Shown here: positions 920-42,597 of the stretch, piece after piece
Numbering within the stretch: the first letter of the stretch is position 1
Layout of the letters: every line of letters begins with the position of its first letter
Assembly (NCBI GenBank): GCA_947166565.1
Contig: CAMVEL010000009.1
Location: forward strand, 1-64,000
Length of the DNA stretch: 64,000 nucleotides
Reading direction: 5' to 3'
Source: an uncultured Erysipelotrichaceae bacterium
GTDB taxonomy: Bacteria > Bacillota_I > Bacilli_A > RFN20 > CAG-826
The notes under the pieces: model-generated
The model's input: the letters and a program-made list of their open reading frames with translations, nothing else
Told to the model about the DNA's origin: nothing
The model's database searches: none
Made by a program: the position numbers and the translations under genes

Positions 920-1005
920 TATTCGAAGTGCAACTGGCTGCCCAGGATTTGGGCCCTCTAGCTTTGCGTCGCCGGATTACTCCGGGTTTGCCGAGAATTA
1001 TTTTA
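920..1005 (-). promoter_or_regulatory. c-di-GMP-I (GEMM) riboswitch
   Basis: Minus strand: AATTCTCGGCAAACCCGGAGTAATCCGGCGACGCAAAGCTAGAGGGCCCAAATCCTGGGCAGCCAGTTGC matches the GEMM-I core (GCAAACC...GACGCAAAGC...GGGCC...GGCAGCCAGTTGC). Confidence 0.85.
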
Positions 1006-22648: not shown

Positions 22649-22878
22649 TGACACGAGCGGATTATAACATGCCTATGCGCGAGGACAAAGCAAAAAGACC
22701 AAATCGCAGGTGCTCGATTAAGCATTTTTTCAACCATCCAAGATAAAACTTTTGAAAAGTCAATTAAGGTTTTATCGGAAAAATTAGCGGTGATTTGGAC
22801 ACTGTCTAAAAAGATTGGCATTTTTCATGAGCCAATTTTCGGTTTTCTTCCCTATTAGTTAGTAGGAGGAAAACCCAA

Positions 22879-23079
22879 ATGGAAGACCTTTGGAGTTTGT
22901 CTCCCCTCATCAATCCGCGCGAAGCCTCCTGGGCAACGTCCCTTAAGCGCGGAAGGAAAGGAGGAAAACGGCGTGTCCAAGAGGCAAAAGAGGCCCGGGT
23001 GGCCCAAGGCGATCGCGAAGGCGGCGCTGAGGATCCTGCTCGCGGCCCTGCTGCTGTTAGGGACGCCGTTCCCCCATAG
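22879..23079 (+). CDS. Micro-ORF A of the repeat element (66 aa)
   Basis: AGGAGG-N9-ATG; MEDLWSLSPLINPREASWATSLKRGRKGGKRRV...; INPREAS...RGRKGG shared with copy 3 (ORF 2 codons longer upstream, in frame). Confidence 0.45.
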   Translation: MEDLWSLSPLINPREASWATSLKRGRKGGKRRVQEAKEARVAQGDREGGAEDPARGPAAVRDAVPP

Positions 23080-23086
23080 GTGGTAA
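22973..23086 (+). CDS. Micro-ORF B of the repeat element (37-aa cationic/hydrophobic peptide)
   Basis: AAAGGAGG-N7-GTG; VSKRQKRPGWPKAIAKAALRILLAALLLLGTPFPHRW*, basic N-terminus plus single hydrophobic segment. Confidence 0.5.
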   Translation: MSKRQKRPGWPKAIAKAALRILLAALLLLGTPFPHRW

Positions 23087-23126
23087 ATAAAAGGGCCGAC
23101 GAGTAGCCGGTCCACACTTATCACCT

Positions 23127-23195
23127 AAACTATACGCCAAGGACCGGGCCCTTTCAAGGGGGCTAGGGCCGGAGACCGTGCGTATAGTTTTTCTT
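23127..23195 (+). ncRNA. Terminal structured hairpin of the repeat element (terminator-like)
   Basis: AAACTATACGC...CCCTTTCAAGGGGGCTAGGGCCGG...GCGTATAGTTT then T-rich tract; same architecture in copies 2 (stem half) and 3. Confidence 0.55.
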
Positions 23196-23232
23196 TGACG
23201 AACACGTCGAATGGCTAGCCTTTTTTCATCGC

Positions 23233-23394
23233 TCGAAAGCGGCGCTGAGGATCCTGCTCGCGGTCCTGCTGCTATTAGGGACGCTGTTCCCCCATAGGTG
23301 GTAAATAAAAGGGCCGACGAATAGCCGGTCCATACTTATCACCTAAACTATACGCCAAGGACCGTGCCCTTTCAAGGGGGCTAGGGCCGGAGAC
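23233..23394 (+). repeat. Tandem partial copy 2 of the element (3' half)
   Basis: Repeats 23015-23176 at an offset of 218 bp with few substitutions; encodes KAALRILLAVLLLLGTLFPHRW* without a start region. Confidence 0.85.
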
Positions 23395-23479
23395 AGAGGG
23401 TATCGCAAGCCTACATTTGAGGTGTCGTTCTTATACTTTATTAGGCAAAATTTGGATATAATGTTTCGGGAGGATTTAT

Positions 23480-38794: not shown

Positions 38795-38960
38795 TACCCC
38801 CTCCAATCGGAGGGTTCCTTATCTGGGATGAGGGGGCTTCTGTTTCCTTCTTTCGAAGGGTTTTTCTTCCCGCTCTATCGAGTCCCTATGTCCCGCGCTG
38901 GCATCCGCCGAGTCTTTCGATAACCAGCGCCCTCGTCGACTTATTCAGTCCTGGCGCTAA
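38795..38960 (-). ncRNA. glmS ribozyme (GlcN6P-activated self-cleaving leader)
   Basis: Minus strand: TTAGCGCCAGGACTGAATAAGTCGACGAGGGCGCTGGTTATCGAAAGACTCGGCGGATGCCAGCGCGGGAC; predicted cleavage between A38958 and G38957; directly upstream of glmS. Confidence 0.92.
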
Positions 38961-39084
38961 TAGGCAAAGGAAATCCAAAACCTATTTGGGGATAGTTTAC
39001 CATTTTAAACAATTGTGTCAAATCTTGGTAATTTTCCCCGATAATCTTGCGGTTTTCCTTTGCTTTCTTAAGAAAGAATAAAGG

Positions 39085-39945: not shown

Positions 39946-40020
39946 TGGCTCTTCCTCCAAATGAATATTTTCATTTATATGGTTTCAAAGTCAAATAAAA
40001 TGCGTATAACCATTGCGGAA

Positions 40021-40364
40021 AACTATACGCCCGGATTCCGGCCCTAGCACCCCTTGAAAGGGCATGGTCCTAGGCGTATAGTTTAGGTGGTTTAATAACT
40101 CCGGCTATCCGCCGGCCCTGTTATTTACCACCTATGGGGGAGCAGCGTCCCTAGCAATAAGAGTGCCGCGAGCAGGATCCGTAACGCCGACCGGCGCTCT
40201 TTTGTTTTTCGGCACGCTGTATTCCTCCTTTCCTGCCGCGCCTATGAAACGTCGTTCGGGAGGCTTCGCGCGGATTGATAGGGAGCGGAAACGCATTCCA
40301 GATTTGTTCAATCATGGAAATGTCCTCCTACTAACCAATAGTGAAAAAATCCGTTTTTTGGCTC
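40021..40364 (-). repeat. Multicopy micro-ORF/structured-RNA element, copy 3 (full length, inverted)
   Basis: Reverse complement aligns to 22829-23190 from GAGCCAA to GCGTATAGTT; ORF A-like MIEQIWNAFPLPINPREASRTTFHRRGRKGG; ORF B frame disrupted. Confidence 0.85.
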
Positions 40365-40494: not shown

Positions 40495-40681
40495 ATGGCA
40501 AAGAAAGAGACACGCCCCTTCCTTATAGGGAAGCGGGTACCACTCTGGAGCCTTCTAGCGAAATAAGTTAGACGTTTCCTAGCGTTAATAGGATAAGAGA
40601 GCGTCTTATATATCTATATATTTAAGGCGAAGTAAGGTGGTACCGCGCTACTTGGCGTCCTTATGGATGGACGCTTTTTGT
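40495..40681 (+). promoter_or_regulatory. T-box leader (tRNA-Thr responsive, by context)
   Basis: T-box sequence AAGGTGGTACCGCG (40634-40647) followed by terminator GCGTCC-TTATGGAT-GGACGC-TTTTT; upstream of thrS. Confidence 0.93.
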
Positions 40682-40701
40682 TTATTTAGGAGGTAAGTTC
40701 C

Positions 40702-42597
40702 ATGAAAGTAATCTATTTGGGCAAGGAAGTCGAACTTGAGGATGGCATTATCGGTTTCAATGCCGTCAAGGCCCTTGACCCCGAACGTCGCAAGGAGGCT
40801 TTGGCCTTCAAGGTCGGCGAACGCATCTATGACATGAACCAAGTCGTTCCTGAAGGCGAACTTAGTTTCGTCTTCCCTAGCGATAAAGAAGGTTTTGAGA
40901 TGATGAACCACTCCTGCAGCCACCTTATGGCGCAGGCTATCCACCATCTTTATCCGCATGCCCAATTCGGCTTTGGCCCCGCGATTGAGGAAGGCTTCTA
41001 TTACGATGTCGATTTCGGCGAAGAGAAGATCACCGACGCCGATTTCCCGGCGATTGAGGCGGAGATGAGGAAGCTTTCCAAGGAGGCTATCCCCTATAAG
41101 AGAAAGGAACTCTCGATCGAAGAGGCCCTCGAAGTCTTCAAGGATAACCCCTATAAGACGGAGCACGTCCCTGAACTCGAGGCCCCAATCTCCATGTACG
41201 AACAAGGCGATTTCATCGACCTTTGCCGCGGTCCCCATGTTCCAAATACCTCCTATTTGAAGCATTTCAAGCTCCTCTCCCTCGCCGGAGCCTATTGGAG
41301 AGGCGATTCCAAGAACAAGCAATTAACGAGGATCTATGCGACTTGCTATCCAACCGAAGAGGCCTTGAAGGAACATCTTGAGGTCTTGGAGAAAAGGAAA
41401 GCCAACGACCATCGCCGCCTTGGCAAGGAACTCGAGCTCTTCATGCTTTCCGATTATGGCCCAGGGCTCCCCTTCTTCCTCCCAAAGGGCATGGTCATCA
41501 AGAATGAACTCATGGCCTATTGGAGAGAGGTCCATATCCCAGAAGGCTATAAGGAAATCGAGACCCCGACGATGCTTTCCCGTGAATTATGGGAAATATC
41601 GGGACACTGGGAACATTATAAGGACAACATGTACACGACCAAGGTCGACGAGAAAGATTTCGCGATCAAGCCGATGAATTGCCCAGGCGCCCTATTGACC
41701 TATAAGAACTCCCTTCATTCCTATAAGGACCTCCCGCTTCGCCTTGGCGAATTCGGACACGTCCATCGCCATGAGGCCAGCGGAGCCCTCAACGGTCTAT
41801 TCCGCGTCAGGGGCTTCACCCAGGATGACGCGCATATCCTCATCACCCCTGACCAAATCGAGGACGAAGTCAAACGCATCATGTCCATCTTCGATAGGAT
41901 GTATTCGGTCTTTGGACTAAGCTACTATATCGTTCTCTCCACCCGTCCCGACGATTATATCGGGGAAAAGGAATTCTGGGATAGAAGCGAGAAGATCCTC
42001 GCGGAAGCCTGCGAGCATTCCGGGCACGAATATCGTATCAACGAAGGCGATGGGGCCTTCTATGGACCAAAGCTCGACTTCAAACTCCGCGACACGATGG
42101 GCCGTACCTGGCAATGCGGAACGATCCAACTTGACGTCAACCTCCCCCATAGGTTTGGGGCCTATTATATCGATGAGAAGGGTGAAAAGGCCGAACCGGT
42201 CATGCTCCATCGCGTCGTCTTCGGCTCGGTCGAACGCTTCATCGGCATCCTCATCGAGAATTATGGCGGAGCCTTCCCAACTTGGTTGGCCCCCGTCCAA
42301 GTCAGGCTTCTTCCGGTTTCCCCCGAAGCCCATGGCGAATACGGGAAAGAGGTTTACGATATCCTCATGAAAGAGGGCATCAGGGTCGAACTCGACGATG
42401 CGAACGAAAAGCTTGGCTATCGTCTCCGTAACGCGGTCGTCTCCAAGATCCCCTATAGCCTCGTACTTGGCGAAAAGGAAAAGGAGACCCGTTCGGTCAC
42501 TTACCGCATCTACGGCCAAAAAGACCAGATCACCGTCCCTCTTGATGAATTCATCGCCCTCATCAAGAAGGCGATCAAGGAAAAGGCCCGTTTCTAA
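40702..42597 (+). CDS. thrS: Threonine--tRNA ligase
   Basis: TGS domain; HSCSHLMAQAIHHLYP; RLGEFGHVHRHEASGALNGLFRVRGFTQDDAHI. Confidence 0.97.
   Translation: MKVIYLGKEVELEDGIIGFNAVKALDPERRKEALAFKVGERIYDMNQVVPEGELSFVFPSDKEGFEMMNHSCSHLMAQAIHHLYPHAQFGFGPAIEEGFYYDVDFGEEKITDADFPAIEAEMRKLSKEAIPYKRKELSIEEALEVFKDNPYKTEHVPELEAPISMYEQGDFIDLCRGPHVPNTSYLKHFKLLSLAGAYWRGDSKNKQLTRIYATCYPTEEALKEHLEVLEKRKANDHRRLGKELELFMLSDYGPGLPFFLPKGMVIKNELMAYWREVHIPEGYKEIETPTMLSRELWEISGHWEHYKDNMYTTKVDEKDFAIKPMNCPGALLTYKNSLHSYKDLPLRLGEFGHVHRHEASGALNGLFRVRGFTQDDAHILITPDQIEDEVKRIMSIFDRMYSVFGLSYYIVLSTRPDDYIGEKEFWDRSEKILAEACEHSGHEYRINEGDGAFYGPKLDFKLRDTMGRTWQCGTIQLDVNLPHRFGAYYIDEKGEKAEPVMLHRVVFGSVERFIGILIENYGGAFPTWLAPVQVRLLPVSPEAHGEYGKEVYDILMKEGIRVELDDANEKLGYRLRNAVVSKIPYSLVLGEKEKETRSVTYRIYGQKDQITVPLDEFIALIKKAIKEKARF

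Follow-up and report, generated by a model that had tools for sequence, protein, structure and literature searches.

What is an intergenic unit of some 350 base pairs that recurs along a bacterial chromosome, carries two very small open reading frames (ORFs) and ends in a long RNA hairpin? The question is raised by positions 22829-23190 of the 64,000-nucleotide (nt) stretch of contig CAMVEL010000009.1 analysed here (the window), which comes from an uncultured Erysipelotrichaceae bacterium, and for which a preliminary description had noted a second copy further along and suggested a type I toxin-like module, a regulatory peptide or RNA, or a mobile element of the repetitive extragenic palindrome (REP) type. 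We find that the element very probably represents a gene family of the competence regulon encoding a small hydrophobic peptide, and we somewhat favor the narrower reading, drawn from promoters, coding selection and copy loss, that it is a chromosomal, multi-copy type I toxin-antitoxin-like family wired into natural competence. Of the three natures first suggested the toxin-like module is thus the best, and the element is indeed a small genetic unit, while REP-like mobility does not agree with the five chromosomal positions that are common to two genomes.

A repeat family in two genomes

The units of the family within the window are the following.

22829-23190, plus strand: copy 1, full element, the reference for end-to-end alignment
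40020-40364, minus strand: copy 2, full element, ORF A start at 40315, ORF B frameshifted
23234-23403, plus strand: 3' remnant copy (3' half, 170 nt), adjoining copy 1 downstream

Copies 1 and 2 match end to end with 73% identity (E=3e-57), as had been proposed for 22829-23190 and 40021-40364, and copy 2 is now placed at 40020-40364. The rest of the genome contains three more full copies, with identities of 78-82%, and the remnant at 23234-23403 shows 94% identity. The search of the complete genome and its relatives that the preliminary description had recommended gave five full copies and two remnants of the 3' part in the source genome, and among the relatives only the sister genome, uncultured Erysipelotrichaceae bacterium RUG266 from a rumen survey, has the family, with five full copies and three 3' remnants. 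These 15 units, ten full copies and five remnants, underlie all comparisons below. The element was absent from the other 29 genomes of the genus and from about 195 further genomes of the family; ORF B and a model of the 3' RNA gave only weak matches in those 29 genomes, of which the ones inspected (G186, G190) lie in or opposite coding genes and the rest were taken as chance-level, and the one weak match to ORF B in the wider family contains in-frame stops. DNA and protein searches of phage and plasmid collections, together with a hairpin pattern run on viral contigs, gave no match at the sensitivity used.

The layout first described is present: an ORF A with Shine-Dalgarno sequence (SD) and ATG, an internal SD and GTG for ORF B, a stem that spans the stop codon of ORF B, and a hairpin at the end. 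It holds overall for both copies of the window, except that ORF B of copy 2 is frameshifted relative to its GTG. Both proposed ends of the element hold as well, the 3' boundary being the end of the right arm of the terminal hairpin, but the first 45 nt also occur upstream of at least 14 other loci and so do not belong to the element alone; the 5' boundary is constant in all copies because the 5' end is a promoter. That no named family was recognised is borne out by the lack of any match in Rfam, Pfam, NCBIfam or PADLOC. The first reading had missed the regulon to which the promoter belongs, an antisense promoter with its terminator, and the contrast in selection between the two ORFs.

A promoter common to competence genes

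22829-22865, plus strand: regulon promoter of copy 1, GAGCC-N18-CTATTAGTTAGTAG, found by fixed-spacing site search
40328-40364, minus strand: regulon promoter of copy 2, found by fixed-spacing site search

The first 37 nt of the element consist of GAGCC-N18-CTATTAGTTAGTAG with invariant spacing. Allowing at most two mismatches, this motif has 19 sites in the source genome and 18 in RUG266, and the reversed control pattern has none in the same search. Downstream of it lie dprA and comEA (Pfam), the latter followed by comEC, an assignment made from position and sequence reading that Pfam did not confirm; a ComFA-like helicase gene, likewise assigned by sequence reading, and a gene for a C39 peptidase/ATP-binding cassette (ABC) transporter also stand behind the motif, and recA has the same CTATTAGTAAGTAG box with a deviating upstream box. 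The motif also precedes genes for a MacB/LolD-type ABC transporter, a small peptide and TnpB, three paralogues with a MuF_C domain, and a transcript that appears to be non-coding. Since the element has this specific motif in common with recA, dprA, comEA-comEC and the ComFA-like gene, it falls within the competence regulon; on promoter evidence, then, the regulon of GAGCC-N18-CTATTAGTTAGTAG is the competence regulon and the five element copies are members of it.

The arrangement resembles the late competence regulon of streptococci under ComX/SigX, where one promoter motif likewise precedes recA, dprA, comEA-comEC and comFA-type genes, but the motif here is different and the acting sigma factor is only presumed. 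Three proteins with Sigma70 region 2 were found, and neither of the alternative ones has the motif nearby. A sigma-like protein beside one promoter of the regulon (C15), with a C-terminal MG284/MPN403 domain, was rejected as a candidate, its match being below the cut-off and the model also matching control genomes.

Upstream of comEA in other species of the genus (L102-L128) we observe a variable, loosely similar CTATA-type box directly before the SD. The promoter has therefore diverged, which suggests that the competence promoter changes fast within the genus.

ORF B is the constrained product

22879-23079, plus strand: ORF A, 66 amino acids, upstream and overlapping leader ORF, truncated by a frameshift in copy 2
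22973-23086, plus strand: ORF B, 37 amino acids, GTG start, proposed toxin peptide, SD AGGAGG at 22959-22964
22915-22952, plus strand: conserved CCGCGC...GCGCGG stem, whose end lies 6 nt before the ORF B SD (sequence reading)

The ORF B peptide has a basic N-terminus, a hydrophobic segment whose 15-residue hydropathy maximum is about 2.2, and a short end reading PHRW, PHR or PRR; its invariant part is the hydrophobic core and not the C-terminus. Over the nine intact copies the ratio of nonsynonymous to synonymous polymorphism (pN/pS) is 0.42 in the ORF B frame, where synonymous changes fall in leucine, isoleucine, arginine and glycine codons, as against 0.69 for ORF A before the overlap and 1.75 within it. 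ORF B is on this contrast the constrained product, under purifying selection as the overlapping part of ORF A is not, and thus has the properties of a type I peptide ORF, being small, hydrophobic and under coding selection. ORF A as the main product was ruled out by the absence of amino-acid selection in the overlap; it is better understood as a leader ORF or one that controls translation. A conserved protein on the minus strand was likewise rejected, the frames there being long and open by composition and inconsistent between copies.

The CCGCGC...GCGCGG stem is nearly invariant (diversity 0.07-0.10) and offers no covariation by which to judge its pairing. In the predicted full-length messenger RNAs (mRNAs) of all ten copies the ORF B SD is about 70-90% paired. 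Neither ORF matched Pfam (E<=1), NCBIfam or PADLOC, nor did curated models of known type I toxin families (TisB, Fst, Ldr, Hok, Ibs and others).

Paired hairpins and a predicted antisense gene

23078-23126, plus strand: H1, with stem P1 over the ORF B stop and hairpin P2 inside it; several pairs are changed on both sides (RNAalifold)
23127-23190, plus strand: H2, the terminal hairpin AAACTATACGCC...GCGTATAGTTT; its arms are not the same in both genomes, the changes being compensatory
23129-23157, minus strand: antisense sigma-A-like promoter TTGAAA-17-TATAGT inside H2 of copy 1 (generic promoter scan)
23085-23122, minus strand: predicted antisense RNA of 38 nt, with the terminator-like P2 hairpin and a T-tract at its end
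23347-23375, minus strand: antisense promoter TTGAAA-17-TATAGT of the remnant (promoter scan)
40054-40082, plus strand: antisense promoter TTGAAA-17-TATAGT of copy 2, with a terminator-like hairpin after it at 40101-40115

For eleven 3' regions RNAalifold predicts two hairpins side by side, H1 at the stop of ORF B and H2 closing the element, with 35 pairs of which 8 are changed on both sides. The H2 arms are AAACTATACG/CGTATAGTTT in four of the five source-genome loci and TTATGATACC/GGTATCGTAA in four of the five RUG266 loci, and pairing is kept. A T run follows H2 in the source genome and is lost in four of five RUG266 loci; H2 can therefore not be regarded just as an intrinsic terminator for the sense transcript. 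Rfam covariance models, including those of known antitoxin RNAs, did not match the element at gathering threshold (window and loci) or at relaxed E-value.

The opposite strand of this hairpin carries a second promoter. Across 22780-23450 (671 nt, both strands) the scan found two sigma-70-like promoters against 0.3 expected (standard deviation 0.5), both on the minus strand and within the terminal hairpins of copy 1 and its remnant, and copy 2 and the RUG266 copies behave alike in the same scan. TTGAA[A/T]-17-TATNNT is present in 14 of the 15 units, the one other being a remnant with a weakened form (TTAAAA, 16-nt spacer); the -35 box is invariant in all ten full copies, and the -10 hexamers (TATAGT, TATCAT, TATTAT) vary at positions 4 and 5 alone. 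About 10 nt past the predicted start, in the same orientation, stands a GC-rich hairpin with a T-rich run, so that the predicted antisense RNA, 37-39 nt in the 11 units measured, sits just 3' of ORF B; the distance from TTGAAA-17-TATNNT to this terminator-like hairpin is about 30 nt. At the level of sequence the element thus has the promoter that a type I system requires for an RNA antisense to the toxin mRNA. The first ten nt of that RNA, its predicted single-stranded 5' tail, are the most variable stretch of the element (nucleotide diversity 0.51; the upstream flank has 0.47 and the core of ORF B 0.11), which fits the divergence that would arise if every antitoxin paired with the mRNA from its own unit.

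Asymmetric loss among fixed copies

The incomplete units bear on how the two genes are related. Copy 2 has its frameshift between the ORF B start and the hydrophobic core and keeps the antisense promoter. None of the five remnants retains the sense promoter or the start of ORF B, yet all have kept the antisense promoter and terminator; two of them begin directly after the antisense terminator, with no ORF B left. In three, H2 has an intact left arm, the one with the -10 box, but its right arm is missing or has been replaced. The remnant beside copy 1, lacking the promoter and the SD for ORF B, is accordingly a candidate orphan antitoxin. In none of the 15 units is the toxin kept and the antitoxin lost, and such asymmetry is the pattern expected of a toxin-antitoxin pair.

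The five full loci occupy orthologous positions in the source and RUG266 genomes, with matching flanking genes and flanking sequence, and internal sequence has been exchanged between loci, the hairpin arms being homogenised within each genome. Shared positions together with homogenisation favor gene conversion among fixed copies, which appears to account for the pattern more readily than transposition. The remnants seem to be the 3' parts of older copies that stayed in place when a new copy recombined in. The differing insertion sites, terminal repeats and target duplications that would mark a REP or miniature inverted-repeat transposable element are not what we see: the five positions are shared, inspection revealed no transposon-type ends, and no empty site was found in which target duplications could be compared.

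Relation to known type I systems

Antisense promoters located downstream of the toxin gene on the opposite strand, and overlapping its 3' end, are familiar from TxpA/RatA and BsrG/SR4 of Bacillus subtilis, and several dispersed chromosomal copies of a short toxin and RNA unit from Ibs/Sib of Escherichia coli. The former arrangement is also described for YonT/SR6 of B. subtilis (PMC5848175). All three Bacillus pairs differ from the present element in having longer overlaps, in being prophage genes and in encoding different peptides. Dispersed chromosomal units recur in zor/orz of E. coli, for which orphan antitoxins are described, and orphan antitoxins and an upstream ORF of unproven translation are features known from zor/orz and tisB/istR (PMC11264685); Ibs/Sib and zor/orz are unrelated in sequence to the family and have no link to competence.

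The best reading of the layout, as judged from the predicted features, is TisB/IstR-like with a competence promoter replacing LexA. TisB/IstR-1 of E. coli has a stress-type inducible promoter, a small membrane peptide, an upstream ORF (tisA) and a constitutive small antisense RNA (PMC11264685), but IstR-1 acts far upstream of tisB whereas here the antisense RNA lies 3' of the ORF, a single LexA-controlled locus there contrasts with five competence-promoter loci here, and no sequence similarity was found. In Fst/RNAII and Fst-Sm/srSm of enterococci and streptococci, which are intergenic, the antitoxin RNA converges on the 3' end of a hydrophobic peptide gene of about 32 amino acids, as for fst-Sm/srSm (PMC3543317). 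Against that likeness, ORF B has no Fst match in Pfam, the predicted antisense RNA is about 38 and not about 70 nt, its terminator is its own hairpin just after the ORF in place of a shared bidirectional terminator, and the sense promoter is of an inducible type.

Weighing the alternatives

Several observations count against a toxin-antitoxin function. The terminal hairpin is itself maintained, so that conservation of the antisense promoter could be partly structural, and some P2 stems have A-C mismatches on the antisense strand. A 38-nt antitoxin would be shorter than RNAII and srSm, at about 70 nt each (PMC3543317). The divergence of the antisense 5' tail could equally mean absence of constraint, and mere chance may have preserved the antisense unit in remnants of recent origin; with the family known from two close genomes only, the copies have had limited independent evolution. 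ORF B resembles no toxin family in the libraries searched.

A basic N-terminus followed by a hydrophobic segment and a short tail is also the build of small pheromone precursors in general, and ORF B could be read as a signal-peptide-like precursor of a competence or quorum peptide such as LFPHRW, present in five copies for dosage and with positive feedback via the shared promoter. The C39 peptidase/ABC transporter gene of the regulon and the C-terminal variants (HRW, HR, RR) agree with this, but no receptor or regulator gene was recognised adjacent, the invariant part is the hydrophobic core and not the C-terminus, and the antisense gene, with its keeping in toxin-less remnants, is left unexplained, so that we consider it unlikely. 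Small membrane peptides are not always toxic, and the same sequence evidence would suit a competence-induced, holin-like or immunity-type membrane protein serving lysis, DNA release or pilus function and DNA uptake, tuned by its antisense RNA without self-poisoning; we think this rather unlikely, given that a small hydrophobic peptide with a convergent 3' antisense RNA and orphan antisense units is the usual type I pattern. The covariation in H1 and H2, the keeping of the 3' RNA part in remnants and the loss of ORF B in copy 2 could instead point to a family of regulatory RNAs acting through these hairpins in trans on other competence transcripts, the ORFs being by-products, yet the conserved SD before the ORF B GTG and the selection on ORF B, with synonymous leucine-codon changes that the other overlapping frame does not mirror (0.42 against 1.75), make it quite improbable. 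Highly improbable is a non-autonomous mobile or REP-like element: dispersed intergenic copies and a terminal palindrome recall one, but the loci are orthologous in both genomes, transposon-type ends and phage or plasmid matches are lacking as described, and the 5' part is a regulon promoter that serves ordinary genes.

Under the toxin-antitoxin reading, both strands of the element would be transcribed. An active competence sigma factor would produce a short-leader mRNA with ORF A, as leader or translation control, and ORF B, whose peptide would enter the membrane and slow, arrest or permeabilise the cell. In non-competent cells the constitutive sigma-A promoter in each 3' hairpin would yield a 37-39-nt RNA that pairs immediately 3' of the ORF B stop and keeps leaky toxin mRNA silent, presumably via double-strand cleavage or 3'-end remodelling; on induction the sense mRNA would out-titrate it, and copies without the toxin would persist as orphan antitoxins. 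The full proposal, plausible but tentative, is of an undescribed toxin-antitoxin family whose toxin is a late competence gene, whose exceptionally short antitoxin of about 38 nt is encoded inside the 3' hairpin of the toxin mRNA, and whose five loci evolve in concert and give off orphan antitoxins, the toxin being put to a TisB-like use by competent cells.

Other loci in the regulon and the window

Several further loci were observed in the source genome (G000). From C22:24094 on (L035/L137) a competence-type promoter leads into a structured-looking and apparently non-coding sequence of about 600 nt that recurs at the matching RUG266 site (L055); it is no transfer or transfer-messenger RNA, has no Rfam match even at relaxed E-value and no similarity to the TnpB 3' region, and is possibly an undescribed competence-induced RNA. 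From C34:9833 on (L037/L136) a TnpB/OrfB_IS605-like gene with a Cas12f1-like TNB domain (Pfam) stands under such a promoter, followed by several hundred non-coding nt with repeated GAGAGGC..CTCGGGG-like hairpins, a possible domesticated TnpB with guide RNAs. Three paralogous proteins of 167-173 amino acids have the same promoter (C1:39562, C26:26357 and C27:173; L026, L024 and L025), and the one scanned matches Phage MuF_C. Beside the MuF_C-type gene near 26500 of C26 (L013) are two tandem copies around GGAGTCAGCCAGCGAAAGC...CTGGACGCG...AAAAGCGTGGCAAAGATCA, possibly a structured RNA, with no Rfam match at gathering threshold.

A bacteriocin-like small peptide gene (...GEAITLATVMVVFTVVILTVVAYRLF...) without a Pfam or NCBIfam family lies under the promoter, and a relative in another genus stands just before radC with a similar box upstream (C2:8432, L027; G140:C34, L045). 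A two-gene unit (about 97-120, then about 350 amino acids) under this promoter type occurs in different genera of the family (C15:30549, L034; G089:C6, L044), with a weak, sub-threshold match to the MG284/MPN403 domain. The window itself holds a glmS ribozyme (38820-38969, minus strand) and a cyclic di-GMP-I riboswitch (926-1002, minus strand), both by Rfam, and at about 40520-40700 (plus strand), before a 631-amino-acid ORF at 40702, a leader that is T-box-like by eye and has no Rfam match at gathering threshold.

Implications

A competence promoter is now defined in a group of uncultured rumen bacteria for which a literature search found no described competence regulon. If the toxin-antitoxin reading is true, the RNA would be among the shortest proposed antitoxins, and the family would offer a natural set of cognate pairs and orphan antitoxins in which to study how RNA specificity is gained. 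Competent cells would use a built-in membrane toxin, for growth arrest, division delay or DNA release, as SOS-induced E. coli uses TisB, and natural transformation would be tied to a type I toxin-like peptide, a link that could explain, in a testable way, growth arrest or heterogeneity in competent cells.
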